IMG/VR virus record: IMGVR_UViG_3300031974_004351
Location: 1 to 34,523 of that record
Strand: one strand, 5' to 3'
DNA: 34,523 bases
DNA from: a virus
Shown here: one piece after another, positions 3,700-29,042 of the stretch
How positions within the stretch are numbered: position 1 is the first letter of the stretch
Layout of the letters: each line of letters starts with the position of its first letter
Program-made: the position numbers and the translations under genes
The notes under the pieces: model-generated
Seen by the model: the letters and a program-made list of their open reading frames with translations, nothing else
Told to the model about the DNA's origin: nothing
The model's database searches: none

Positions 3700-3864
3700 T
3701 TAATACCAGGGATTATTAGTCACATAACTAGGCAAAAATCTTTCTTCGGTTTTTGGCCCAAAAGATTTTGCAATCTTATGATTTTTAGCCTGTGGACTCA
3801 ATAATTTGTTTCTAAGGTCGCGTTTGACAGCATGTTTAAAACATGCAATTTGATATTTAGTCAT
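3700..3864 (-). CDS. Small basic protein controlled by a tandem glutamine riboswitch, 54 aa
   Basis: The ATG at 3864 is chosen because AAGGAG lies 5 nt upstream. A longer in-frame start at 3903 would run through the riboswitch aptamer and has no ribosome binding site. The product is very basic (K-H-A-V-K-R-D-L-R-N-K near residue 10-20; A-K-N-H-K-I-A-K-S-F-G) and ends P-S-Y-V-T-N-N-P-W-Y. No known domain recognised. Small peptides directly behind glutamine aptamers are the hallmark of the 'downstream-peptide' class, so this may be a phage effector made according to glutamine supply. No target can be named. Confidence 0.7.
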   Translation of the reverse strand: MTKYQIACFKHAVKRDLRNKLLSPQAKNHKIAKSFGPKTEERFLPSYVTNNPWY

Positions 3865-3882: not shown

Positions 3883-3935
3883 GATGCGTTCCTTCGGTAT
3901 CATTACCTACTTCCGTCTGTTTCCAGATGAACGAT
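3883..3935 (-). promoter_or_regulatory. Glutamine riboswitch aptamer (glnA/downstream-peptide type), gene-proximal copy
   Basis: Read on the minus strand: P1 is CGUUC/GAACG, P2 is UCUG-GAAA-CAGA, followed by the conserved CGGAAGUAGG, hairpin P3 GGUA-AUGA-UACC, then CGAAGGAACGCAUC. These are the conserved three-way junction segments of the glutamine riboswitch as I know it. It ends 8-10 nt before the ribosome binding site of the 54-aa gene. Confidence 0.88.
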
Positions 3936-3938
3936 GAT

Positions 3939-3989
3939 AATGCGTTCCTTCGTCTTATGACTACTTCCGTCCCCTAAGGGATGAACGAT
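3939..3989 (-). promoter_or_regulatory. Glutamine riboswitch aptamer, gene-distal copy
   Basis: Same architecture as the proximal copy: CGUUC/GAACG closing stem, P2 UCCC-UUAG-GGGA, ACGGAAGUAG, P3 GUC-AUAA-GAC, and CGAAGGAACGCAU. The loop-side stems differ in sequence but keep pairing, which supports conserved structure. Only 3 nt separate it from the proximal copy. Confidence 0.87.
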
Positions 3990-4284: not shown

Positions 4285-4959
4285 TTATCGTTTATCGCAT
4301 TGCCTCTCGGCTTTATTAAGTAATCTAAAATTATTTGCCACAACAACTCCAGTTGAAACACCTGCACCTAATTTCCAATCATACCAAAAATTTTCGTCGG
4401 CATCTAAAACAAATTTTAGTCCACCAATAATACCCAACTTTAAACCCACCATTTCATGCACTTTTGGAACTTCGGGTAATAAAGGATTTGCTTCATATAA
4501 ACAATCATACTTCATACCCCTATAAGTTGAATATACATCTAATGCCTGTATAGTCCAGAAGAATATATCAATATATCTTCTTTCTCTCTCGGTCCAATGA
4601 AAATCTGGAGAGGACATATCCACGTCAAGATTTACATCATTTATTGAGAATTGTGGAGCTAGTTCTTGGAATTTTGGATTGTGTTGTAAATCGCGAAATG
4701 TAGGAACAAATTTAGGACCATAAGGTAATTGGATAATTGCACCGTTAGGCATTATTCTCGCCTTGCCTACAATTGTTCGGCGAACATAATGTTCGTTATA
4801 TGGAGCAAAATGCCCTTGTTGAAATTGTGCTAAATGTCTTTGATTAACGCTGGGTATGTAATGTGTTTCTATTTTAGGCACATAAGCACTTGCCGGAATA
4901 CTCAGAAGTAAAAGTAATCCGATAATGAATTTATTTAGTAGTCGCGATAAAGACTCCAT
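4285..4959 (-). CDS. Secreted/membrane protein with DUF5658-like region, last gene of curli operon
   Basis: An AAAGGA precedes the ATG, which overlaps the cyclase gene by 29 nt. The N-terminus is a signal peptide (about residues 1-25: basic start, then L-L-L-L-L-S-I-P-A-S-A). The middle is Pro/Tyr/His-rich. The C-terminal region (about residues 125-215) has the pattern I-Q-A-L-D-V-Y-S-T-Y-R-G-M-K-Y-D, E-A-N-P-L-L-P, then two hydrophobic stretches with G-L-K-L-G-I-I-G-G-L-K. This resembles DUF5658-type membrane proteins (D-x-x-x-T-Y ... E-x-N-P-L). As terminal gene of the late operon it probably acts in the envelope with the pore genes; the precise role is unknown. Confidence 0.65.
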   Translation of the reverse strand: MESLSRLLNKFIIGLLLLLSIPASAYVPKIETHYIPSVNQRHLAQFQQGHFAPYNEHYVRRTIVGKARIMPNGAIIQLPYGPKFVPTFRDLQHNPKFQELAPQFSINDVNLDVDMSSPDFHWTERERRYIDIFFWTIQALDVYSTYRGMKYDCLYEANPLLPEVPKVHEMVGLKLGIIGGLKFVLDADENFWYDWKLGAGVSTGVVVANNFRLLNKAERQCDKR

Positions 4960-6970
4960 TCCAATCCTTTGGTAGCGTTTGTGTTTTCATATATTCACAA
5001 CGCTCTATCCACATCTTGTAATAACCAGCCATTTGGCCTTCAAAACATTCCATTAAGTCATTACAGATTTTAATGGCCTTATCAAAATTTTGTTTTCGAT
5101 AATTCAGATGCATTGCTTCATGCATCTCTGTGGGTTTAATATATTTATTCTTGGGCAAATCAAGAACTGTGTAAATTTCAATGCCTACTGTCTTTCCCTT
5201 TACAGCTAAATCATCTACTTTTAAAAAGAAAAAGTCATCACGACAATGTTTTACTGTATCTCCACCTACTAATAAAAGACAACCATATTCTTTACATTTA
5301 GATTCTATGCGGGCAGCTGTGCTAACAGCGTCTCCCAAAACGTCATAGGAGTGTCTCGATGTAGAACCCATTTCCCCAAGATAGCCCAAACCGCTATTAA
5401 TACCAGCCCCCATACCAATAGGTGGCCTTCCTTCAGCTGTGATTTTTTCATTAAATTTCTCCACTGCTTTTAACATGTTGAGCCCAGTTTGTACTGCGCT
5501 TTTAGGATGTTCCGGGTCATCAATAGGCGCATTATGGATATGCATTGAAGCATCGCCTATATATTTTATAATCATTCCATCAGCGTTAAGGACAGGCTCT
5601 GTGATTGAATCCATATATCCATTCATTAATTTTGTCAAGCCCTGTACATCGTCTCCAAAACTTTCACCTAAAGGTGTAAAGCCTCTTAAATCAGAAAAAC
5701 AAATACTGACTTCTTTTTTCATACCTTCTTTAATGAGGGCAGGATTTTCTTGTAAGAGACGAACAACTGTTGGAGAAGCATACCCAGAAAATTGCTTTTG
5801 TATTTGACGTTTCTCTAAGAACGTGATATAATACTTATTGAAACTTGATTGGGCAAACACTATTAAGGACGATAATGAACTCAACGTGGCATCGACAAAG
5901 ATTAATGAACCCTCCCAAAGATAATAGCTTACTCCGTAGGAGGAAACTACAAGTGGAAGCGCAACTAACACCGCAGGAGTTGTGGGCAAGATATAGACCG
6001 CTCCAAGAATACCTAGACCTAGTACAACCAGAAGAACAAGCTCGGCTATTGGCTGCCAGTCGGGAATCTGTATTTCAACTCCTGAAAGGACGGTCTGAAC
6101 CAGGTGTGCTTGAACTTCGTGGGGATACTTTGCACCCAATGGGGTTGCGACTGGATTAGAATATCCTTCAGCTGTTACGCCAAATAAAAGAACCTTTCCA
6201 GATGGTAATGGGTCCAATATACTGATTTGTTCAAATTCATTCCAGAACGCAATTGGCATTTCAGCAAAACTATTTGTTGTAATTGGGTCTTGGCGACCCA
6301 TTCGTATCCACTCGACTCCATTGGAGCCGACTTTCATCTGATAACTTGGTTCTCCGGTAAACACTCGTAATGTATCGAGGGCGAGAGATGGATAGGGATT
6401 CCCGGCTGCTTTAACAACGAGGGGCGCTCTTCGCACGACTCCGGTTGGTGCGTCAGGAATAGCAACAGTGGCGCCAACACCAAAAGCCCAAGAAGAAAGA
6501 GATTCCACAGGGTACAATAATCCTGGAAACGTGTATAGCCAATTTTCATTTTGTTCTCCAAAAGTTGCAACACCTACAAAGGTGCCAACTCCATCTGATG
6601 TTTGTTGAGTGGGAGCAGAAGATAATACAACAGCTTTATTTGCCATTGCTTCTGCCAATTGATTATCCTCTCCGAACCTATCAGATTCGGAATAAATCAT
6701 ATTTAATACATATAAAGAATCAGCAGGGCCAGAATTAATGTAATCAGCAACACTGCCCCTTGGCCAAGGATACTGACCATTTTTTGCAATTGATCTTTCG
6801 TCAATGTTGACGAGGACAATATCCTCCGACGCAATCTTTTCTTTTTTGGAATGGAGATAGTCATAATATGAATACTCTATACTTTGAATAAAATTTGGAT
6901 TCGATATACTTAAAGTAGCAAATCCAGTGATGGTTATTAATACCGTCCACCACTTTGTTAACCATTTCAT
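4931..6970 (-). CDS. CHASE2-domain class III adenylate cyclase
   Basis: A 679-aa membrane sensor-cyclase. Residues 8-23 form a membrane helix, about 30-300 a periplasmic CHASE2 sensor domain (D-I-V-L-V-N-I-D-E-R-S and P-W-P-R near 50-72), and about 308-375 three membrane helices, the usual CHASE2 layout. The cyclase domain spans about 415-605. Metal-binding Asp are present: D427 in F-S-D-L-R-G-F-T and D473 in Y-I-G-D-A. K469 before I-G-D and D543 in S-Y-D-V-L-G-D fit an ATP-specific enzyme, and the transition-state Arg is R554. The usual Asn four residues before it is Ser550 (AGC codon), so activity may be altered. The TAA of the curlin gene overlaps its ATG. It probably converts ATP to cAMP in response to an envelope signal. 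Confidence 0.9.
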   Translation of the reverse strand: MKWLTKWWTVLITITGFATLSISNPNFIQSIEYSYYDYLHSKKEKIASEDIVLVNIDERSIAKNGQYPWPRGSVADYINSGPADSLYVLNMIYSESDRFGEDNQLAEAMANKAVVLSSAPTQQTSDGVGTFVGVATFGEQNENWLYTFPGLLYPVESLSSWAFGVGATVAIPDAPTGVVRRAPLVVKAAGNPYPSLALDTLRVFTGEPSYQMKVGSNGVEWIRMGRQDPITTNSFAEMPIAFWNEFEQISILDPLPSGKVLLFGVTAEGYSNPVATPLGAKYPHEVQAHLVQTVLSGVEIQIPDWQPIAELVLLVVLGLGILGAVYILPTTPAVLVALPLVVSSYGVSYYLWEGSLIFVDATLSSLSSLIVFAQSSFNKYYITFLEKRQIQKQFSGYASPTVVRLLQENPALIKEGMKKEVSICFSDLRGFTPLGESFGDDVQGLTKLMNGYMDSITEPVLNADGMIIKYIGDASMHIHNAPIDDPEHPKSAVQTGLNMLKAVEKFNEKITAEGRPPIGMGAGINSGLGYLGEMGSTSRHSYDVLGDAVSTAARIESKCKEYGCLLLVGGDTVKHCRDDFFFLKVDDLAVKGKTVGIEIYTVLDLPKNKYIKPTEMHEAMHLNYRKQNFDKAIKICNDLMECFEGQMAGYYKMWIERCEYMKTQTLPKDWNGVFIATTK

Positions 6971-7710
6971 TATTGGCCTTGCGTTACCGCTGCACTACAT
7001 CCACCAGCCGTATAACAATCTACTGAAAGTGAATATGTTTGAGTTGTTGTTCCTTGCTGTAATAAATTTAATGTTGTTCCATATATGCCATCAAGTGTAA
7101 TTGTAGCAGAATGAGTAGCGTTATTTCCTTTTTGTCTTAGCGTCACGTCGTTGTATGAATTATAAATTGTTAAATCTATATCTTTACCACCATCGTGTTG
7201 TTGTCTAAACCAAATATCGTTATCACTGCCAGCAAGATGAAAGTTAAAATCGTGTCCGGTTGTTCCACCTTGATTTGTCTGATGTCCCTGGAGGTGATTA
7301 TTGTTTCCATATAAATCCATTTCAATATAATGGCCTCCGCCTTCAAGCCCATCATATGAATATGTAGAGCTCGTTGAGCTACTCCAAGCTGCGCCTTGAG
7401 CTAATCGAACTGTATTTCCACTACCACTCATTTCATCAATTACGATTTGATTTGAAGTATTAGTGTCGTTATATTGAACAAAAAATAAATTTAAACTTGC
7501 TGAATTGATGTATGAATAAACATCTTGCATTTTAATAATATTATTTGCACCAACTTGTTCTACTGTAAGATTTAGATTATCCCCAGTTTGTTCTATTGTG
7601 ATTTCATTATCTGCATAAGTCTTTCCGGCTGCTAATAAAAGGTAAACACCTAATATTGTCCATGCAAATCCTAATAATACTTTATCTAATTTTCTATCGA
7701 ATTCGTCCAT
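6970..7710 (-). CDS. Curlin-repeat (CsgA/CsgB-like) secreted protein 2
   Basis: A 246-aa protein with a charged start, a hydrophobic segment (about residues 12-29) and a likely cleavage after T-Y-A before D-N-E-I. The mature N-terminus D-N-E-I-T-I-E-Q-T-G-D-N-L-N-L-T-V-E-Q-V contains Q-x-G-x-x-N spacing typical of curlin repeats. Further degenerate repeats follow (F-H-L-A-G-S-D-N-D-I-W-F-R-Q-Q; L-R-Q-K-G-N-N-A; L-L-Q-Q-G-T-T-T). Two Cys near the C-terminus (D-C-Y-T-A-G-G-C) are unusual for curlins. Likely exported through the CsgG pore encoded upstream as an amyloid-like subunit or nucleator. It overlaps the cyclase start by one base. Confidence 0.8.
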   Translation of the reverse strand: MDEFDRKLDKVLLGFAWTILGVYLLLAAGKTYADNEITIEQTGDNLNLTVEQVGANNIIKMQDVYSYINSASLNLFFVQYNDTNTSNQIVIDEMSGSGNTVRLAQGAAWSSSTSSTYSYDGLEGGGHYIEMDLYGNNNHLQGHQTNQGGTTGHDFNFHLAGSDNDIWFRQQHDGGKDIDLTIYNSYNDVTLRQKGNNATHSATITLDGIYGTTLNLLQQGTTTQTYSLSVDCYTAGGCSAAVTQGQ

Positions 7711-7718
7711 AATTTTAT

Positions 7719-8864
7719 TTATCCACCTTGTTTTATAACTATAACTGAGTCGTCTCCACCATTTAAATTAATGATACCCGAATAACCTTCCACCTCTGTA
7801 TCAATTCTGGCAGAAGCATCTATGGCAAATACTAATTTAATTGTGTCTTGCACTTGTCTATAAAATACAATTTTTCCATCTTGTTCATAAATGTTATATT
7901 GAGAGTCAGCATTAAGTCCAAATGAAGCTCCTTTTAATTCTGCTCCCAATGAAGTTCCAGCAATTGCTCTATCATCAAGCGCAGCAGTAGTTTTTACAAG
8001 CTCTTCTACAATATCCAAAGCATCAGTTAGGAAATCAACATCAAGAAAATCAATGTCAAGCTCTGAAAATTCTAATGCATCATCTGCAAGATAATCTGTT
8101 TCTAATTCTGTAAACTCTAAAAAGTCAATATCAAGCAATCCTTGGTCTTGATTTGCATCATCAGCCATTTCCTCGTCAATTGCTTCTTTTACTTCAGGAG
8201 GAGGGGCAACGATAAACATATTATCAATCATTGCTGGTGTGATGTTCTGTATACTGATTTTAGGAGTAGGTGGAGAATCCAATGTGGAAACCATTGTCGC
8301 TGCATAAGCTTCCTCTAAAACGATAGTACCACCGAGATTTGATACCTCTATGGTACCTGATGGATTACCATATTGGTCTGGTAAAAGAATGACAAGCGAC
8401 CTTCCGAGCTCGTCAATAGTTGTTGTAAAGTCTGTCCCACGAACTGATATAGTAGCTGTAGGTGTTTGTATGTCTATATTGTTTTTGTTGACCATACCCA
8501 AACGACCAGATGCGAACCTTGCAGTCCCCATCGCCATTCTCATAGCCATTTTTGATTTGCTTGGGTCTGGGTCGTAGTATACTTTGTCAATGAATACTTT
8601 TGTATTTTCTGTAAGTGAAAGTTCTGCTTTATCTAAGAACTCAATTAACATTCGGCCGTTTTCTGTTTCAGCCGTGTCATTCATTACGATATCTGGAACT
8701 TGTGCATCTGAAACTGTCAGCGTTGCACCAGCTTCACGAGTGATAGAAGCACTTCCCTTGTGTTCAATGATATTCCCGATGGGCTCTGCATGAGAACCCA
8801 CCGAAAATAGTAGAATACTAGCTGTCGTTAGAGCTGTCTTTTTGATTAATCTGAATTGTTGCAT
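7719..8864 (-). CDS. Secreted FecR-domain protein
   Basis: Start ATG at 8864 is preferred because it gives a clean signal peptide (M-Q-Q-F-R-L-I-K-K then hydrophobic, S-H-A cleavage near residue 26). An in-frame ATG at 8879 adds five residues; neither has a clear ribosome binding site, and both overlap the preceding curlin gene, so coupling is likely. The FecR region (about 45-170) shows E-T-E-N-G-R-M-L-I-E-F, L-S-L-T-E-N-T-K-V-F-I-D, G-R-L-G-M and the diagnostic T-P-T-A-T-I-S-V-R-G-T-D-F. A strongly acidic repeat region follows (about 240-290), with L-D-I-D-F-L and L-D-V-D-F-L motifs. FecR proteins of this type often sit next to CHASE2 cyclases in bacteria. A periplasmic sensor or fibre-associated role is inferred. 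Confidence 0.8.
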   Translation of the reverse strand: MQQFRLIKKTALTTASILLFSVGSHAEPIGNIIEHKGSASITREAGATLTVSDAQVPDIVMNDTAETENGRMLIEFLDKAELSLTENTKVFIDKVYYDPDPSKSKMAMRMAMGTARFASGRLGMVNKNNIDIQTPTATISVRGTDFTTTIDELGRSLVILLPDQYGNPSGTIEVSNLGGTIVLEEAYAATMVSTLDSPPTPKISIQNITPAMIDNMFIVAPPPEVKEAIDEEMADDANQDQGLLDIDFLEFTELETDYLADDALEFSELDIDFLDVDFLTDALDIVEELVKTTAALDDRAIAGTSLGAELKGASFGLNADSQYNIYEQDGKIVFYRQVQDTIKLVFAIDASARIDTEVEGYSGIINLNGGDDSVIVIKQGG

Positions 8865-9546
8865 TTTCAGAATCAACATCTAGTGTTATGATACCATTAC
8901 AGGTTGTGACCCCTGTTGGGCATGTACCACTTAACTGATTAATGTCAATATCAGCTGATGAACCATCAAGTGTTAAATTGATTTCTTGTTCACCACCATC
9001 TTTTTGCATAGTGTTAATGTTATTTGAACCTCCAGTAATATCGAAGTTCCAAACAGCATCGTCTACGTCTATATCGACATCAAAGACATTACTATCTCCA
9101 ATTATAGTTAGATCGAAATCCAACCTTTCCGCGCTTGCGTTATAACCTTGGTCAAAATCCATTATGTTAGAATCACCAGTAATACTTACATCCATAGCAG
9201 TACTATCTGAAGAGCCAACATATCCGATATTCCAATCCCATTTGTTAGAATCACCTGTAAACAATAAGTTATAGGTGCTACTATCAGCTATTAATGGACC
9301 GAATAATAGATTCTGATTACCAATTTGGTCTATATTAAAATTCAAAGTTGTACCAGTTATAACCATGGCACTTGAAGATGAACTAAAATCATCAGCTCCA
9401 ATTTTGTTGCCATAACCATATTGGTCAATGTATAATGTTAAAGTGTCACCAACCTGTTCGATGTTAATTTCGTTATCATCGGTAGCTTGAGCAAATGCGA
9501 AACCAGAGATTAATACTAAACTTAGGCCTAATAGTTTTTTAATCAT
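8818..9546 (-). CDS. Curlin-repeat (CsgA/CsgB-like) secreted protein 1
   Basis: A 242-aa protein with a classical signal peptide (M-I-K-K-L-L-G-L-S-L-V-L-I-S-G-F-A-F-A, cleavage near residue 19). Mature sequence begins D-D-N-E-I-N-I-E-Q-V-G-D-T-L-T-L and has Q-Y-G-Y-G-N, a true curlin Q-x-G-x-G-N motif. It then shows a ladder of G-D-S-N units (F-T-G-D-S-N, I-T-G-D-S-N, I-I-G-D-S-N, I-T-G-G-S-N) about 22-30 residues apart, with alternating hydrophobic/polar strands and I-N-Q elements. This is what an amyloid beta-solenoid looks like. It directly follows csgG (overlap 8 nt). Very acidic overall, unlike E. coli CsgA. Confidence 0.85.
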   Translation of the reverse strand: MIKKLLGLSLVLISGFAFAQATDDNEINIEQVGDTLTLYIDQYGYGNKIGADDFSSSSSAMVITGTTLNFNIDQIGNQNLLFGPLIADSSTYNLLFTGDSNKWDWNIGYVGSSDSTAMDVSITGDSNIMDFDQGYNASAERLDFDLTIIGDSNVFDVDIDVDDAVWNFDITGGSNNINTMQKDGGEQEINLTLDGSSADIDINQLSGTCPTGVTTCNGIITLDVDSENATIQINQKDSSNDS

Positions 9547-10462
9547 CTTTCGTTTCCTCTATTTTATTATTGATTTTCCAGAAGCCACGTCTGTCTCCTT
9601 GATAAACCATTTCCAGCACGGCAGCCTCGATAGCTGTTCGTACTGCATACGTCACCGATTCATTATTTCCCACACCGTCTTCATATTCAATCAACTGTGT
9701 TCCTTGTTCGATGAATCTAAATACATCACCTCCGGAACCATAACTTAAAATTGTCTTTTTCGTTTGGACATTTAATAGTACTTCGCCTGTTAGAACACTT
9801 ACCGCTCTTAGCGATACCGTCACTTGGTCTTGTCTATATTGACGTGAAAATCCAATACCTAAAGTTCTGGCACCTCTACCGCCAGTTTTTAAATTACTAT
9901 CATATCCAATAATACCACCTTCAATTATCATTCCTGCAAATAAAAGTGGTCCTAAATTTTGTGGCTCTTCTCCAAGAGCTTTGGCAGCTTCGTCCCTGCC
10001 ACTTCTAATAATTTGTCTTTCTCGTACAAGGGCATCAATCCCTTGTCTTTCAACTACTCTAAACCAGGTTCCATTACCTGCAGTTTTAAGAGCGTCAATT
10101 AATAATTCTGTTCCACCTTGAGTCACAGCTGTAGAAAAACTTTGCCCTGTGACTGAGTCCTTACGTTGCCCTGTTTTATCCAAAAATTGATATACAGCAA
10201 CAACCGGTCTTGTTTCAGCTGGTGGTAAATTTAACAATTCAATATAGGATGGTAGCTCTACTACTTGTGGATTTTCAGCACATATTAATTGACTAGTGTA
10301 AAACTTACGAACGCCTGTGTAGACATCTTTACCCCAGCCTTCATCGTACTTACCTGTTTCGTATGCACAATTGGCAGGATTCTCAGACCACTGCGGAATA
10401 CTGGCACAGCCAGTCATAAATGCAAGTGCTATTATACTAGCCGTTCGGGTCAGAATTTCCAT
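9539..10462 (-). CDS. csgG: CsgG, curli secretion outer-membrane lipoprotein pore
   Basis: The ATG at 10462 is preferred over a TTG nine bases upstream. The product is 307 aa. Lipoprotein signal: A-L-A-F-M-T-G with lipidated C19. The body matches E. coli CsgG closely: V-V-A-V-Y-Q-F, F-S-T-A-V, E-R-Q-G-I-D-A-L-V-R-E-R-Q-I-I-R, E-G-G-I-I-G-Y-D-S-N, G-G-R-G-A-R, T-G-E-V, K-T-I-L-S-Y, V-F-R-F-I-E, A-I-E-A-A-V, and R-R-G-F-W. CsgG forms a nonameric export channel in the outer membrane. There are about 45 extra residues between the lipid Cys and the body. The eyelet loop reads S-V-T-G-Q-S-F: the phenylalanine is kept, while the Tyr and Asn of E. coli appear replaced. It overlaps csgF by 26 nt. Confidence 0.95.
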   Translation of the reverse strand: MEILTRTASIIALAFMTGCASIPQWSENPANCAYETGKYDEGWGKDVYTGVRKFYTSQLICAENPQVVELPSYIELLNLPPAETRPVVAVYQFLDKTGQRKDSVTGQSFSTAVTQGGTELLIDALKTAGNGTWFRVVERQGIDALVRERQIIRSGRDEAAKALGEEPQNLGPLLFAGMIIEGGIIGYDSNLKTGGRGARTLGIGFSRQYRQDQVTVSLRAVSVLTGEVLLNVQTKKTILSYGSGGDVFRFIEQGTQLIEYEDGVGNNESVTYAVRTAIEAAVLEMVYQGDRRGFWKINNKIEETKDD

Positions 10463-10931
10463 CGCTTCCAAATGTTCCTGTTCCTATAGGAATTTCAATT
10501 ACTGTTGTTGTTCCATTCTCATCAACGATGGTCATTTTAATATATTCTGTACCATCTTCGCTGGTGAGTACCTCATATGTCACGGTAGAACCTTCAAGGA
10601 CAAATGAGCCGAATCTTACAGGATTGTCATTTGAAAACATATTATCAACTAGTTGTTTTGCTAATTGAGCGTATATACGTGATTCTAAATTACGAATAAA
10701 TTTTGCGAGGGTTGTGTTATCTGCTTCTCGTTCTGCAGCTCTTTGCGCAGCCTCTAAAGCATCTTCGATTTGTTTCTTTCTGCTGTGTTCTTGGTTTTCA
10801 ATGGTCAGATAGTGAGCACCCGTACCCACACCACTGAAAGAAGGATTTTTAAACTTGTGTACAATAGGTTCTGCCTGAACAGTACCAATTGCAAATAATA
10901 AAATTAAACTACTTTTTAGTTGGTTTCTCAT
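10437..10931 (-). CDS. csgF: CsgF, curli assembly factor
   Basis: The ATG at 10931 gives a standard signal peptide (M-R-N-Q-L-K-S-S-L-I-L-L-F-A-I-G-T-V-Q-A, then E-P-I-V); an ATG at 10952 would add seven basic residues. The mature protein has the CsgF signature: F-K-N-P-S-F-S-G near the start (the segment that plugs into the CsgG channel), H-Y-L-T-I-E-N-Q-E, the helix D-N-T-T-L-A-K-F-I-R-N-L-E-S-R-I-Y-A-Q-L, and a C-terminal beta domain (T-V-T-Y-E-V, T-I-V-D-E-N-G-T-T-T-V-I-E-I-P-I-G). CsgF binds CsgG outside the cell and couples secretion to curlin nucleation. It overlaps both neighbours, consistent with one operon. Confidence 0.93.
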   Translation of the reverse strand: MRNQLKSSLILLFAIGTVQAEPIVHKFKNPSFSGVGTGAHYLTIENQEHSRKKQIEDALEAAQRAAEREADNTTLAKFIRNLESRIYAQLAKQLVDNMFSNDNPVRFGSFVLEGSTVTYEVLTSEDGTEYIKMTIVDENGTTTVIEIPIGTGTFGSDGNSDPNG

Positions 10932-11178
10932 TTTGATCTTTAAGCCTCTCATTCTCTTTATACTTTAATACCACATCTACCTTTTGCTGTAAACGAATAA
11001 GATCTTGGTCTAGCATTCTCATTCGGTCAATTACCTTTATCAATTGCATATGTTGTTTGTCTATTTCAGGCTGTAATTTTTCGTTTACAAATTGCCAGAC
11101 AAAATAGACGAAATACCCAAGCCCAACAACCATTACGACCGGAAAGCCATATTCTGATATTAGTTGTGCTATATCCAT
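10909..11178 (-). CDS. Small membrane protein with coiled coil, curli operon
   Basis: The ATG at 11178 follows the previous stop by one base; a TTG at 11190 is less likely. The 89-aa product begins M-D-I-A-Q-L-I-S-E-Y-G-F-P-V, has one membrane helix (about residues 13-33: V-V-M-V-V-G-L-G-Y-F-V-Y-F-V-W) and a long amphipathic helix with M-R-M-L-D-Q-D-L-I-R-L-Q-Q-K-V. I recall this protein type as conserved in marine T4-like phages with no firm function; its length and topology are holin-like. Its first 30 residues resemble those of the protein at 11398-11694. Confidence 0.75.
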   Translation of the reverse strand: MDIAQLISEYGFPVVMVVGLGYFVYFVWQFVNEKLQPEIDKQHMQLIKVIDRMRMLDQDLIRLQQKVDVVLKYKENERLKDQNEKPTKK

Positions 11179-11179
11179 A

Positions 11180-11398
11180 TTAAAAATCAAAATTTAGTTG
11201 TTCATTACTATCAAAATCAACACGTTTGTCTACTCTACGCAACATCGGTTGACCTATTTCAGTTTCACTTGCCACAAAATAATCTCCCACTTCCCAATTA
11301 AATTTGTCTAATGTTAGGTCTGCAGTTCGTGATTCTGCGTCAAAAATTAGAATATCGCCACAGGGAGTTAACTCCCATTTATAGCCACAAAACAACAT
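11180..11398 (-). CDS. Small conserved phage protein, 72 aa
   Basis: The ATG overlaps the stop of the upstream gene by one base. The sequence M-L-F-C-G-Y-K-W-E-L-T-P-C-G-D-I-L-I-F-D, then D-L-T-L-D-K-F-N-W-E-V-G-D-Y-F, looks like a short beta-rich soluble protein. I recall homologues next to the same small membrane proteins in marine T4-like phages. No catalytic motif. Its place between two membrane proteins suggests it acts with them. Confidence 0.75.
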   Translation of the reverse strand: MLFCGYKWELTPCGDILIFDAESRTADLTLDKFNWEVGDYFVASETEIGQPMLRRVDKRVDFDSNEQLNFDF

Positions 11399-11694
11399 TA
11401 ATCTCTCCTTACGTCGAGTTTTCCGTCCTCAATAAAATTCTCTGCCCGAGCTATTCTCTCAATATCGGGATTTAATCCCAGCGCGCTACTCACAAGCAGA
11501 TCGATTTTGACCATCTCATTTGACATAGTCCGAGCTCTGTTTTCGAGGCTTTCACAAAACATTGTTAATGTATTAATGCTATCAACGATTCCTTCAAAAA
11601 TTTGCTTAATAATAATGAATATGAAGAATCCCATTGTCAACGCCCCGGCAATGGGTAAACCCACATCCGAAATCAGCTGAAATATTTCTTCCAT
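11398..11694 (-). CDS. Small membrane protein with coiled coil, first gene of curli operon
   Basis: AGGAAA lies a few bases before the ATG. The 98-aa protein has a start M-E-E-I-F-Q-L-I-S-D-V-G-L-P-I, a membrane helix (about residues 13-33: A-G-A-L-T-M-G-F-F-I-F-I-I-I-K), then an amphipathic helix (S-L-E-N-R-A-R-T-M-S-N-E-M-V-K-I-D-L-L) and a charged end. The layout parallels the protein at 10909-11178 and the two may be distant paralogues. It is the first gene behind the TATAAATA promoter at 11732-11739, so it is probably late and co-expressed with csgF and csgG. Confidence 0.75.
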   Translation of the reverse strand: MEEIFQLISDVGLPIAGALTMGFFIFIIIKQIFEGIVDSINTLTMFCESLENRARTMSNEMVKIDLLVSSALGLNPDIERIARAENFIEDGKLDVRRD

Positions 11695-11731
11695 TATTTT
11701 TCCTATTTTAGGAGAGACGCGCCCTCAAGTC

Positions 11732-11739
11732 TATTTATA
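11732..11739 (-). promoter_or_regulatory. T4-type late promoter of the curli operon
   Basis: An exact TATAAATA on the minus strand, 38 bp before the ATG of the first operon gene. With T4 geometry, transcription would start near 11726. The same octamer precedes capsid and sheath genes in this window. Confidence 0.75.
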
Positions 11740-11783
11740 AGACTAATACAAGCAAAAAAGATTAAAAAATTTACAAAAAAGTG

Positions 11784-11812
11784 TTGACATTTGCTGCTTG
11801 TTATAGTATAAT
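11784..11812 (+). promoter_or_regulatory. Strong sigma-70 early promoter with A-tracts
   Basis: TTGACA (11784-11789), 17-bp spacer, TATAAT (11807-11812), with A-tracts upstream as in an UP element. The core is nearly identical to the promoter of the giant RNA at 15572. Confidence 0.92.
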
Positions 11813-14264: not shown

Positions 14265-14531
14265 ATGGCATTTAAACCTGTAGACACACTAGAAGAGCTA
14301 CAAAAGGAATGGCGTAATCCTTACATACAATGGTATGCAGCTGGAATGCCTTCATTTGTATCTCGTAATACTGAACCTTGGAAACAAGTCACATTAAAGT
14401 TTCGGTCAAAAGAAGACCGAGCATATTTTGGTGAAGCAATGGATTATAAATTGACTGACAAAACAAATGTGGTTTGGTACCCAAGAAAAGAATCAGAAAA
14501 AAATCAGATGAGTAGATATGTCGAAGAGTAA
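14265..14531 (+). CDS. Small phage protein linked to DNA-modification genes, 88 aa
   Basis: The start lies 18 nt after the previous stop, and the 3' end overlaps the glycosyltransferase by 14 nt. Sequence pattern: E-E-L-Q-K-E-W-R-N-P-Y, A-G-M-P-S-F-V, V-T-L-K-F-R-S-K-E-D-R-A-Y-F, and K-T-N-V-V-W-Y-P. The W-x-G-M-P-x-F-V ... F-x-x-x-E-D ... L-T-x-x-T-x-x-x-W-Y-P signature is common in phages near DNA methylases, ParB-like nucleases and base-modifying glycosyltransferases. Its biochemical role is unknown. Coupling suggests it works with the downstream enzyme. Confidence 0.7.
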   Translation: MAFKPVDTLEELQKEWRNPYIQWYAAGMPSFVSRNTEPWKQVTLKFRSKEDRAYFGEAMDYKLTDKTNVVWYPRKESEKNQMSRYVEE

Positions 14532-15465
14532 TCGTTATCCAATTTATATCATATCAAAAGGTCGCTGGGAAAGTCGATACACTCCTAAGGCTTTAGAGAA
14601 AATGGGCGTCCCATATTTCATCGCAGTAGAGCCACAAGAATATGATAACTATAAAGAGGTCATTGGACCACTCGGAACTGTATTAAAACTTCCATTCAGT
14701 AATCATGGAAAAGGTTCTGGTCCAGCTCGGAACTGGTGTTGGGAACATTCTCAGGCAAATGGTTTCAAACGTCATTGGTTAATGGACGATAATATATCTG
14801 AATTTTGGCGTGTCCATAATAATAAAAGATATCGTGTGGAAAAAGGTTCTGCTATTTTTAGAGCAACCGAGGATTTTGTAGATAGATACGAAAACGTAGC
14901 TTTGGCTGGTTTACAATATAAATTCTTTGTGGTTGATGATACTGATTATCCACCTTATGTACTAAATACCAGAATCATGTCATGCTTTTTAATTGACAAT
15001 GATTGCCCAGAAAAATGGAGAGGCAAATATAACGAAGATGTAGATCTGAGTATACGAGTTCTGAAACGAGGACTTTGTACAATGTTAATGTATTCTTTCC
15101 TATGTGGAAAACTGAGAACCGGTACTGTAAAAGGTGGAAATACATCTGAAATTTATAATGATTATAAGGAAGACGCTTCGCTTACCAAATCGCAGATGTT
15201 AAAAGAAATGCATCCGGATTGTGTCACAGTTGGAGAACGATATGGCCGAGTTCACCATTTTGTCGATTTAAATGCAATTAAAAGAGCTGATGGTTTACCA
15301 GCAAGACAAAATGCTCCAATATTAAGATCTGATGTAGATATTGTAAATAAATCAAATAATTATGGAATGAAACTTATGCGAGAGTTTGGTACCGAAAATC
15401 AATATGAAGATGTTGCATTTAGTGCTGATGTGTTTCCTCAAGGTCGCAAATCGGTACATTCATAG
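14518..15465 (+). CDS. TET-associated-type glycosyltransferase (DNA base hypermodification)
   Basis: The 315-aa protein starts with R-Y-P-I-Y-I-I-S-K-G-R-W-E-S-R-Y-T-P-K-A-L, then M-G-V-P-Y-F-I-A-V-E, L-P-F-S-N-H-G-K-G-S-G-P-A-R-N-W, R-H-W-L-M-D-D-N-I (D90/D91, the expected GT-A DxD-like site), F-V-D-R-Y-E-N-V-A-L-A-G, and Y-N-E-D-V-D-L-S-I-R-V-L (E173/D174). These blocks define the TET/JBP-associated glycosyltransferase family described in phages. Family members are proposed to add sugars to hydroxymethylated pyrimidines in DNA to resist host nucleases. No TET/JBP oxygenase is in this window, so the acceptor base is unknown. Confidence 0.85.
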   Translation: MSKSNRYPIYIISKGRWESRYTPKALEKMGVPYFIAVEPQEYDNYKEVIGPLGTVLKLPFSNHGKGSGPARNWCWEHSQANGFKRHWLMDDNISEFWRVHNNKRYRVEKGSAIFRATEDFVDRYENVALAGLQYKFFVVDDTDYPPYVLNTRIMSCFLIDNDCPEKWRGKYNEDVDLSIRVLKRGLCTMLMYSFLCGKLRTGTVKGGNTSEIYNDYKEDASLTKSQMLKEMHPDCVTVGERYGRVHHFVDLNAIKRADGLPARQNAPILRSDVDIVNKSNNYGMKLMREFGTENQYEDVAFSADVFPQGRKSVHS

Positions 15466-28559: not shown

Positions 28560-28985
28560 TTAGTACTCATAATCCTTTTCTTTATCACAAACTCTTTGTC
28601 TCAAACCACTGCTACTAAAGCGATGGTCTCTCTTATTAAAGTAAAGGTCTATATCTCGTTTACGGCATATATCCTTACCTGTGAAATCCTTATCGCGATA
28701 TTCCTCTCCTAGTATACGAACATGAATTGTATACATTTCAAGGATATCTTCTAGATCCCTTTCGGTTGAATAAGGTATAATTTCATCAACATAGCTTACT
28801 GCCTTAAGTTGAGTATATCTTTCAACCACAGTTTGAACAGGTGAATTTTTTTCTGGCCTATCAGAACTTGGGTCCATTTGTAAACCACAAATTAGATAGT
28901 CACACTGTTCCTTTGCCTCTCTTAACATTTGCACATGTCCAGCATGTAATAAATCAAATGTACTAGCTGTAAATCCTACTTTCAT
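28560..28985 (-). CDS. Cytidylyltransferase-family nucleotidyltransferase (TagD/GCT-like)
   Basis: ATG 28985 with GGAG 6 nt upstream is chosen; an upstream ORF start at 29006 lacks support. The 141-aa protein has the nucleotidyltransferase signature F-D-L-L-H-A-G-H-V-Q-M-L (H14-x-x-H17) and the C-terminal R-F-S-S-S-G-L-R-Q-R (equivalent of the S-S-T-x-I-x-x-R motif). These proteins transfer CMP (or AMP) to substrates such as glycerol-3-phosphate; the substrate here is unknown. It is an accessory gene inserted between structural genes 15 and 16. It could feed sugar or lipid activation, or nucleotide-cofactor salvage. Confidence 0.88.
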   Translation of the reverse strand: MKVGFTASTFDLLHAGHVQMLREAKEQCDYLICGLQMDPSSDRPEKNSPVQTVVERYTQLKAVSYVDEIIPYSTERDLEDILEMYTIHVRILGEEYRDKDFTGKDICRKRDIDLYFNKRDHRFSSSGLRQRVCDKEKDYEY

Positions 28986-29042
28986 AATTTCTCCATTATA
29001 TAACAATGCTATGTTCCATTATAACACATTTAATTACAAATG

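Follow-up and report, generated by a model that had tools for sequence, protein, structure and literature searches.

A candidate curli secretion operon behind a putative T4-type late promoter in a T4-like phage genome fragment

What use might a phage have for the genes of a type VIII (curli) secretion system? The question is raised by the IMG/VR virus record IMGVR_UViG_3300031974_004351, a 34.5-kb record of a marine T4-like phage that was analyzed over all of its 34,523 nucleotides (nt) (here called the window), in which an initial annotation, made from the letters alone, had recognized csgF, csgG, two curlin-repeat proteins, a FecR protein, a CHASE2 cyclase and small membrane proteins as one overlapping series behind a late promoter. 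The explanation that we favor, with a probability of about 0.62, is that this is a phage-encoded type VIII secretion operon, controlled by a T4-type late promoter, that exports curlin-like proteins to the outside of the dying cell. CsgG and CsgF would form a pore in the host outer membrane late in infection, and the two curlin-like solenoid proteins would cross the inner membrane by Sec and then pass through the CsgG/CsgF pore to the cell surface, where they would form or join fibers. The secreted FecR protein and the CHASE2 cyclase would serve the pore from the envelope side, as its partner and its sensor, rather than act as iron regulators, and two small membrane proteins, an addition seen in phage modules, may provide a link to the inner membrane or to lysis.

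Gene content, conservation and promoter of the operon

The genes lie on the minus strand, from 11694 down to 4931, in the order 98-amino-acid (aa) protein, 72-aa open reading frame (ORF), 93-aa protein, CsgF, CsgG, curlin-1, FecR, curlin-2 and CHASE2 cyclase, with a 224-aa gene, whose membership in the operon set is uncertain, next after the cyclase (Table 1). ORFs and Pfam matches together confirmed the gene series. Matches past the Pfam cut-offs were obtained for CsgF (PF10614; E = 9.7e-16), CsgG (PF03783; E = 3.9e-55), FecR (E = 3.1e-9) and, within one ORF, both CHASE2 (E = 2.6e-29) and a class III cyclase (E = 5.8e-16). That the series is overlapping held for eight of the nine junctions between 11694 and 4285, the remaining one being an 8-nt gap, with start codons as the ORF finder takes them; some of the overlaps would become short gaps if later start codons applied. 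Likewise, the reported absence of CsgE, CsgC and CsgD stood for the 20 window proteins scanned, none of which had a Pfam match to any of the three, a scan that left out the remaining ORFs.

Because its relatives were the best 80 of 332 IMG/VR viral relatives of the window CsgG, with HTVC008M and Melnitz added, our sample of loci is biased. The initial annotation had proposed a comparison across related phage genomes, and in this sample the gene block was intact: both small proteins and CsgF are present wherever the sequence upstream of CsgG exceeds 2 kb (75 of 75 loci), as are curlin-1, FecR and the cyclase wherever that downstream exceeds 7.5 kb (45 of 45), with curlin-2 following FecR in 44 of the 45 (the exception is L080). 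The ratio of nonsynonymous to synonymous substitution rates (dN/dS), estimated by NG86 for 15 chosen pairs, some of them not computable through saturation or missing genes, was 0.05 to 0.24 for CsgF, CsgG, curlin-1, FecR and the cyclase, apart from one CsgF pair at 0.48, and is read as purifying selection. The 98-aa protein had the lowest values of the operon (0 to 0.14), the ranges for the 93-aa protein, curlin-2 and the 224-aa protein being 0.02 to 0.37, 0.13 to 0.35 and 0.29 to 0.69.

Modules of this kind have been published for pelagiphages and Melnitz (PMC9599517, PMC7029224, PMC9004378). The initial annotation had pointed to curli-like genes in pelagimyophage relatives, which was right and even understated, as Wittmers et al. 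published the full pelagiphage type VIII module in 2022, together with its FecR and cyclase genes (PMC9599517), and describe CsgE as missing from it. HTVC008M (KC465899) and Melnitz (MZ577097) have the same genes in the same order, from the small proteins through the cyclase, and the window operon is a further case of this already described phage module. Apparently new with respect to the open-licence literature are the late motif at the operon, the mislabeling of the genes before csgF as histidine kinases and the occurrence of FecR/cyclase curli operons in bacteria.

The exact motif TATAAATA occupies 11739 to 11732 on the minus strand, where it begins 45 nt and ends 38 nt ahead of the first start codon, an ATG preceded by AGGA. 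We discarded the number of copies in the window as evidence; four were found against 3.98 ± 2.17 expected, which is no excess over chance, and consequently only the placement of the motif and its conservation in relatives count. All four copies lie on the minus strand, 21 to 70 nt before a gene (the csg operon, scaffold, protease and sheath); a strand position fits this description in about 6% of cases, which gives the placement a probability of roughly 1e-5, a post hoc figure that depends on a hand-made gene list. Of 55 distinct regions ahead of the first operon gene, 44 contain the exact motif, 13 to 57 nt from the start codon, whereas 100 dinucleotide shuffles of the same regions gave a mean of 0.92 regions with the motif and a maximum of 3, and control regions before six other operon genes contained it in 1 case of 294. 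The 55 regions lie wholly upstream of the start codon. They belong to viral contigs, to HTVC008M and Melnitz and to the window itself, and are kin sequences and not independent trials. This count replaces an earlier one (45 of 55 regions against 146 of 7,900 random windows) that had included a Melnitz copy overlapping the start codon and had used random windows of mostly coding sequence.

These results upheld the claim of an exact late-type motif ahead of the first gene and suggest that a conserved T4-type late promoter stands close before the operon. In 20 regions the motif starts 13 nt before the ATG, which with T4 late-promoter geometry would give a leaderless message. The operon and the major capsid gene share a strand in all 16 records in which both were located (18 were examined, the window included). 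Zaragoza-Solas et al. reported that late promoters of pelagimyophages could not be predicted (PMC7029224), Buchholz et al. predicted 15 of them in Melnitz (PMC9004378), and pelagiphage curli genes have been reported as expressed in ocean metatranscriptomes (PMC9599517). On the plus strand, a perfect TTGACA-17-TATAAT promoter at 11784 to 11812 diverges from the late promoter of the operon; judged by their motifs, early-type and late-type control are back to back at 11732 to 11812.

Table 1. Coordinates of the promoter motif and genes of the operon in the window
Feature	Position	Strand	Basis or remark
T4-type late promoter TATAAATA (putative)	11732..11739	-	exact motif
98-aa single-transmembrane coiled-coil protein, first gene	11398..11694	-	phrog_18771
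72-aa ORF, family-less	11180..11398	-	present in 5 of 83 loci compared
93-aa single-transmembrane coiled-coil paralogue	10909..11190	-	phrog_18771; later ATG at 11178 likely the true start
CsgF	10437..10952	-	Pfam; conserved FxNPxF pore-binding segment
CsgG outer-membrane pore lipoprotein, N-terminally extended	9539..10471	-	Pfam
Curlin-like protein 1	8818..9546	-	curlin repeats, predicted beta-solenoid
Secreted FecR-domain protein	7719..8879	-	FecR fold after a signal-peptide-like start; then an acidic linker (low confidence) and a beta tail
Curlin-like protein 2, fast-evolving	6970..7710	-	curlin repeats
CHASE2 transmembrane class III nucleotide cyclase	4931..6970	-	Pfam
224-aa protein, signal-like start	4285..4959	-	loosely conserved

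The predicted pore and its curlin-like substrates

An outer-membrane pore, as first proposed, is supported by the sequence and conservation of both of its expected components. Residues 73 to 309 of CsgG align with the sequence of the Escherichia coli crystal structure (173 bits), the lipobox Cys22 is invariant in 21 rows, and the added N-terminal stretch holds further cysteines in many rows. In CsgF, F34, P37 and F39 are invariant in 20 of 20 sequences, and the FxNPxF segment is conserved. Mutation of F5, F7 or F12 of E. coli CsgF abolished CsgG binding (PMC6957492), and two of these three residues align with the window F34 and F39, in an alignment to the PDB chain that scores low overall and is plain within the FxNPxF segment. 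A loss of binding between phage CsgF and CsgG has been suggested (PMC9004378), and the conserved pore-binding phenylalanines speak against it. CsgG is thus a probable pore lipoprotein, and CsgF a partner with a putative pore-binding N terminus. What the phage operon has in common with the curli system of E. coli is CsgG, the pore-binding segment of CsgF and the curlin repeats; unlike that system, it has no CsgE, CsgC or CsgD among its proteins, adds FecR and the CHASE2 cyclase, and has a CsgG with a longer N terminus and extra cysteines.

The CsgG pore might instead import nutrients or cofactors for phage replication, as suggested in PMC7029224 and PMC9599517, and the failure to find a CsgE gate among the scanned window proteins agrees with this. 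However, import would leave unexplained both the late-type control and the keeping together of two curlins, CsgF and FecR, and we consider it highly improbable.

The presence of amyloid-like subunits found support in sequence, conservation and the model of curlin-1, and two proteins of the operon are candidate curlin-repeat substrates. Curlin_rpt was matched at E ≤ 0.1 by 19 of 20 aligned curlin-1 proteins and 14 of 17 curlin-2 proteins, and both curlins have signal-like starts (judged by eye) and imperfect repeats in which G, N and Q are conserved. The model of curlin-1 consists of beta strands throughout, with a mean predicted local distance difference test score (pLDDT) of 79.5 and values mostly between 70 and 95 beyond residue 21. 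There was no PDB sequence match to curlin-1, and the best Foldseek match to solved structures had an E value of 0.5; VIA-align returned SufB/SufD-type and other solenoids (Z of 12 to 17), which assigns the predicted fold to the solenoid class and identifies no relative. In the GenBank record of Melnitz, which is said to lack csgA and csgB (PMC9004378), two operon genes carry the annotation curlin-repeat protein.

Among the named operon parts, curlin-2 shows the lowest conservation, with an identity of 46 to 54% in four pairs whose cyclases share 81 to 94% (46% versus 94% between the window and L005). A surface under pressure would be expected to evolve in this manner, and it has been suggested that the fibers, or a changed surface, exclude superinfecting phages (PMC9599517). 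The late promoter is the wrong timing for this purpose. Exclusion genes of T4 are early, and we regard an exclusion role as improbable.

Several observations weigh against the export of fibers late in infection. The two window curlins themselves score 18.9 and 20.0 bits for Curlin_rpt and so fall below the Pfam cut-off of 20.7, and a CsgA structure is absent among the PDB matches listed. The constriction of E. coli CsgG is formed by Tyr51, Asn55 and Phe56 (PMC6957492), of which only Phe56 is clearly matched in the phage protein, and no CsgE-like gate was detected among the scanned proteins. Both cultured carriers are weak cases for a late promoter: in HTVC008M, no exact late motif lies within 130 nt of the first gene, and the only exact copy in Melnitz overlaps the start codon. 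No infection time course for these genes was found in the open-licence literature, and Melnitz cultures were described as without clumping in cytograms or transmission electron microscopy (PMC9004378). Secretion, fiber assembly, when they occur and a function in keeping cells or debris close to the progeny are what we infer from the operon as a whole, at different strengths. Late export of curlin-like proteins by way of CsgG/CsgF is likely. That tethered fibers keep cells, debris and progeny together is possible and finds no support in the single culture for which clumping was assessed, that of Melnitz. The uses first offered for the system, namely lysis or release, gluing of lysed cells or virions and a changed host surface, are all still candidates.

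The FecR-domain protein, the cyclase and the small membrane proteins

PF04773 was matched by all 21 aligned phage FecR proteins. The window protein was modeled with a mean pLDDT of 61.9 (63 to 90 per block across residues 31 to 200), and its predicted fold resembles the PupR cell-surface signaling domain (Z of 15.0, root-mean-square deviation [rmsd] of 2.7, 135 residues); a related anti-sigma domain was also matched. The FecR domain is preceded only by a signal-peptide-like stretch of ~30 residues (by eye), with no cytoplasmic anti-sigma domain, which implies that the protein cannot act like iron-citrate FecR, on whose role PMC9599517 drew for the FecR of the module. We therefore rejected an anti-sigma regulator, for which the fold is present but the cytoplasmic domain is missing.

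Beyond the domain, residues 241 to 326 form an acidic linker of ~85 residues, modeled at low confidence, with a short beta tail after it. The proposal that this tail is a true curlin repeat was not established. The pattern [ILVT]x[ILV]xQ occurs near the C terminus in 29 of 30 FecR proteins, 37 of 71 curlins and none of 148 control proteins, groups made up of related sequences, and was chosen after the tails had been viewed. A curlin-repeat profile derived from a crude pattern scored the FecR tails (best 3.7 bits, median 1.0) no better than shuffled tails, of which there were many more (best 8.9, median 0.6). Curlin_rpt was listed for none of the 21 FecR proteins, and the model of the tail is poor (pLDDT 42 to 64 per block).

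Residues 31 to 105 also matched 5ix9, a "Cell surface anchoring domain" (Z of 6.8, 73 of 76 residues, rmsd of 2.0), which we used only for the idea of an anchor, because a structural match with Z under 8 may be a common arrangement. Retention domains of adhesins plug secretion pores. It is conceivable, if rather unlikely, that the FecR-fold domain stays periplasmic at the CsgG pore while the acidic linker threads the pore and a curlin-like C-terminal strand seeds the fiber outside, such that a single protein, gate and anchor in one, would stand in for CsgE as well as for the nucleator CsgB. The CHASE2 cyclase would then read the plugged or unplugged state, the two holin-like proteins would time it to lysis, and the fibers would stay tethered to the dying cell.

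In Burkholderia, a biofilm operon encoding a LysM-FecR protein and a CHASE2 histidine kinase likewise combines a secreted FecR protein with a CHASE2 sensor (PMC5192318), and the FecR/CHASE2 pair may accordingly be one sensing unit. The output of the Burkholderia pair is a kinase whereas that of the phage pair is a cyclase, and the accessible part of that report does not mention curli genes.

In the cyclase, D427, D473, K469 and R554 are invariant in 16 rows, and the Asn position is Asn in 12 of the 16 and Ser in the window and three relatives. We take the roles of these residues to be those of the two metal Asp, the adenine-pocket Lys and the transition-state Asn/Arg. Cyclase activity is likely but not certain on this pattern. 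CHASE2 cyclases of Sinorhizobium raise cyclic AMP on a signal received via an outer-membrane barrel protein (PMC13001267), an arrangement that would at least have the right geometry for the phage cyclase. There are two kinds of cyclase among the relatives, those of the window, Melnitz, L015 and L025 sharing a distinct catalytic half and a C-terminal extension that the others lack; the cyclase of L007 is window-like in its CHASE2 half, and domain exchange among relatives is possible.

The 98-aa and 93-aa proteins and their relatives span ~82 to 115 residues and have a single membrane helix and a coiled coil, and in all 81 loci that have both, the two are never at one place. Their family, phrog_18771, has two strong matches in each of eight phage records, all 16 at the curli operon by position, with a third, partial match elsewhere in G310 (E = 0.005), and none in the three bacterial genomes with a related operon. 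It also matches in 2 of 14 control genomes, those of Caulobacter vibrioides and Synechococcus elongatus, so the family search is not perfectly specific and the phage-only status of the small proteins is not clean. Genes before csgF, "sometimes two," are labeled histidine kinases in PMC9599517, and we equate them with the small proteins from their position and number. We rejected this label, as Pfam gave no kinase family for the two window proteins; nor is a kinase family among the 25 families listed for 26 members. The initial description as small membrane proteins was the more accurate one.

The two small proteins of the window have weak matches to the "holin" family phrog_4898 (E = 0.0015 and 0.0024), which at E ≤ 0.1 is found in seven of the eight phage records, at 12 places that are all at curli operons by position, and also in Bacillus subtilis; by these matches the small proteins are weakly holin-like. 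They head the operon, and together with the late promoter they fit the proposal made for Melnitz that the pore is a lysis-timing device, a gated secretin or pinholin analogue, with fiber export secondary or lost. We think this improbable but slightly less so than superinfection exclusion. The holin matches lie mainly over the membrane helix, and HTVC008M has none; CsgG is an outer-membrane pore, whereas pinholins depolarize the inner membrane; and a bare pore would not need the curlins and FecR, which are kept under purifying selection in every well-flanked locus.

Bacterial operons of the same kind

Regulators such as FecR and the cyclase are stated in the abstract of PMC9599517 not to lie within bacterial curli operons and, in its discussion, not to lie in canonical ones. 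This statement is contradicted by three bacterial curli operons (L091, L092 and L093), in Hyphomonas sp. TMED17 and two Caulobacteraceae metagenome-assembled genomes, in which csgF, csgG, one or more curlin-like ORFs, FecR and a CHASE2 cyclase are consecutive. Flanks were checked for L091 and L093; the Hyphomonas operon has genes for fumarylacetoacetate hydrolase and acetyl-CoA hydrolase in its neighborhood, on a contig of 705 kb. These operons share gene content and a CsgG clade with the phages but lack the phrog_18771 small proteins, which were found in none of the three genomes. Their curlin-like ORFs stand before FecR (in L093 as one 504-aa ORF) and resemble phage curlins by tblastn (E of 1e-12 to 1e-15), with no Pfam family at E ≤ 0.01.

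The bacterial form appears rare. Among 299 genomes sampled from the order of Hyphomonas sp. TMED17, a strong match to FecR of the phage type was found in one, the query genome itself, and weak FecR-domain matches in 34 more (best 3.8e-12), versus CsgG at E < 1e-48 in 34. In a CsgG tree of 49 rows, L091 to L093 fall between two phage groups, at a fork with support of 93/86, below the starred support level, and all rows in which a FecR gene was seen fall in one 36-row group (100/98), which includes rows too short to show FecR. Given this rarity and grouping, transfer from phage to bacterium is conceivable, and the block may have moved in either direction.

The bacterial set leaves out L085 to L090, L094, L095 and L135, which are bacterial bins with phage-type modules. 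The bins of L085 to L090, L094 and L135 are assigned to Bacteroidota, Planctomycetota and Rhodobacteraceae, and their contigs probably represent phage DNA that was misbinned. L085, whose CsgG is 99% identical to that of a viral contig, and L095, which has virion-structural and ejection-protein matches, have support for a phage origin; no virion gene was present among the six ORFs of L135. If L094 or L135 were truly bacterial, the small proteins would not be phage-only. L004, a 1.5-kb unverified "Salmonella phage" record, has an enterobacterial-like CsgG that is probably host DNA contamination.

Elsewhere in the window, the minus strand carries the major head protein, scaffold, protease, portal, tail tube, sheath and large terminase. 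Its capsid protein is about equidistant from those of phiM12-type Sinorhizobium phages (68% identity), the Methylophilales phage Melnitz (65% in one comparison and 70% in another) and the Pelagibacter phage HTVC008M (69%), and we have therefore left the host unassigned. A TET-associated glycosyltransferase gene (PF20691, E = 1.8e-47) at 14518 to 15465 on the plus strand hints at modified bases in the phage DNA, and a heptose-phosphate kinase/adenylyltransferase-like gene (28560 to 29006, minus strand) adjoins the small terminase. Two tandem glutamine riboswitch aptamers (RF01739; 66.3 and 60.9 bits), with few bases between them, lie at 3883 to 3989 on the minus strand and precede a small basic ORF (start at 3864) and a terminator-like hairpin (3689 to 3668); in Melnitz, a glutamine riboswitch has been reported together with transfer-messenger RNA (PMC9004378).

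Phages of abundant marine bacteria have a secretion system that is absent from their known hosts, for a purpose that is puzzling. Two misleading annotations, histidine kinase and iron regulator, are corrected here, and the FecR/CHASE2 pair may belong to a broader class of curli operons that has been overlooked. Taken together, the late-type control, the always-intact gene block and the named bacterial operons make it testable whether fibers are exported at lysis.

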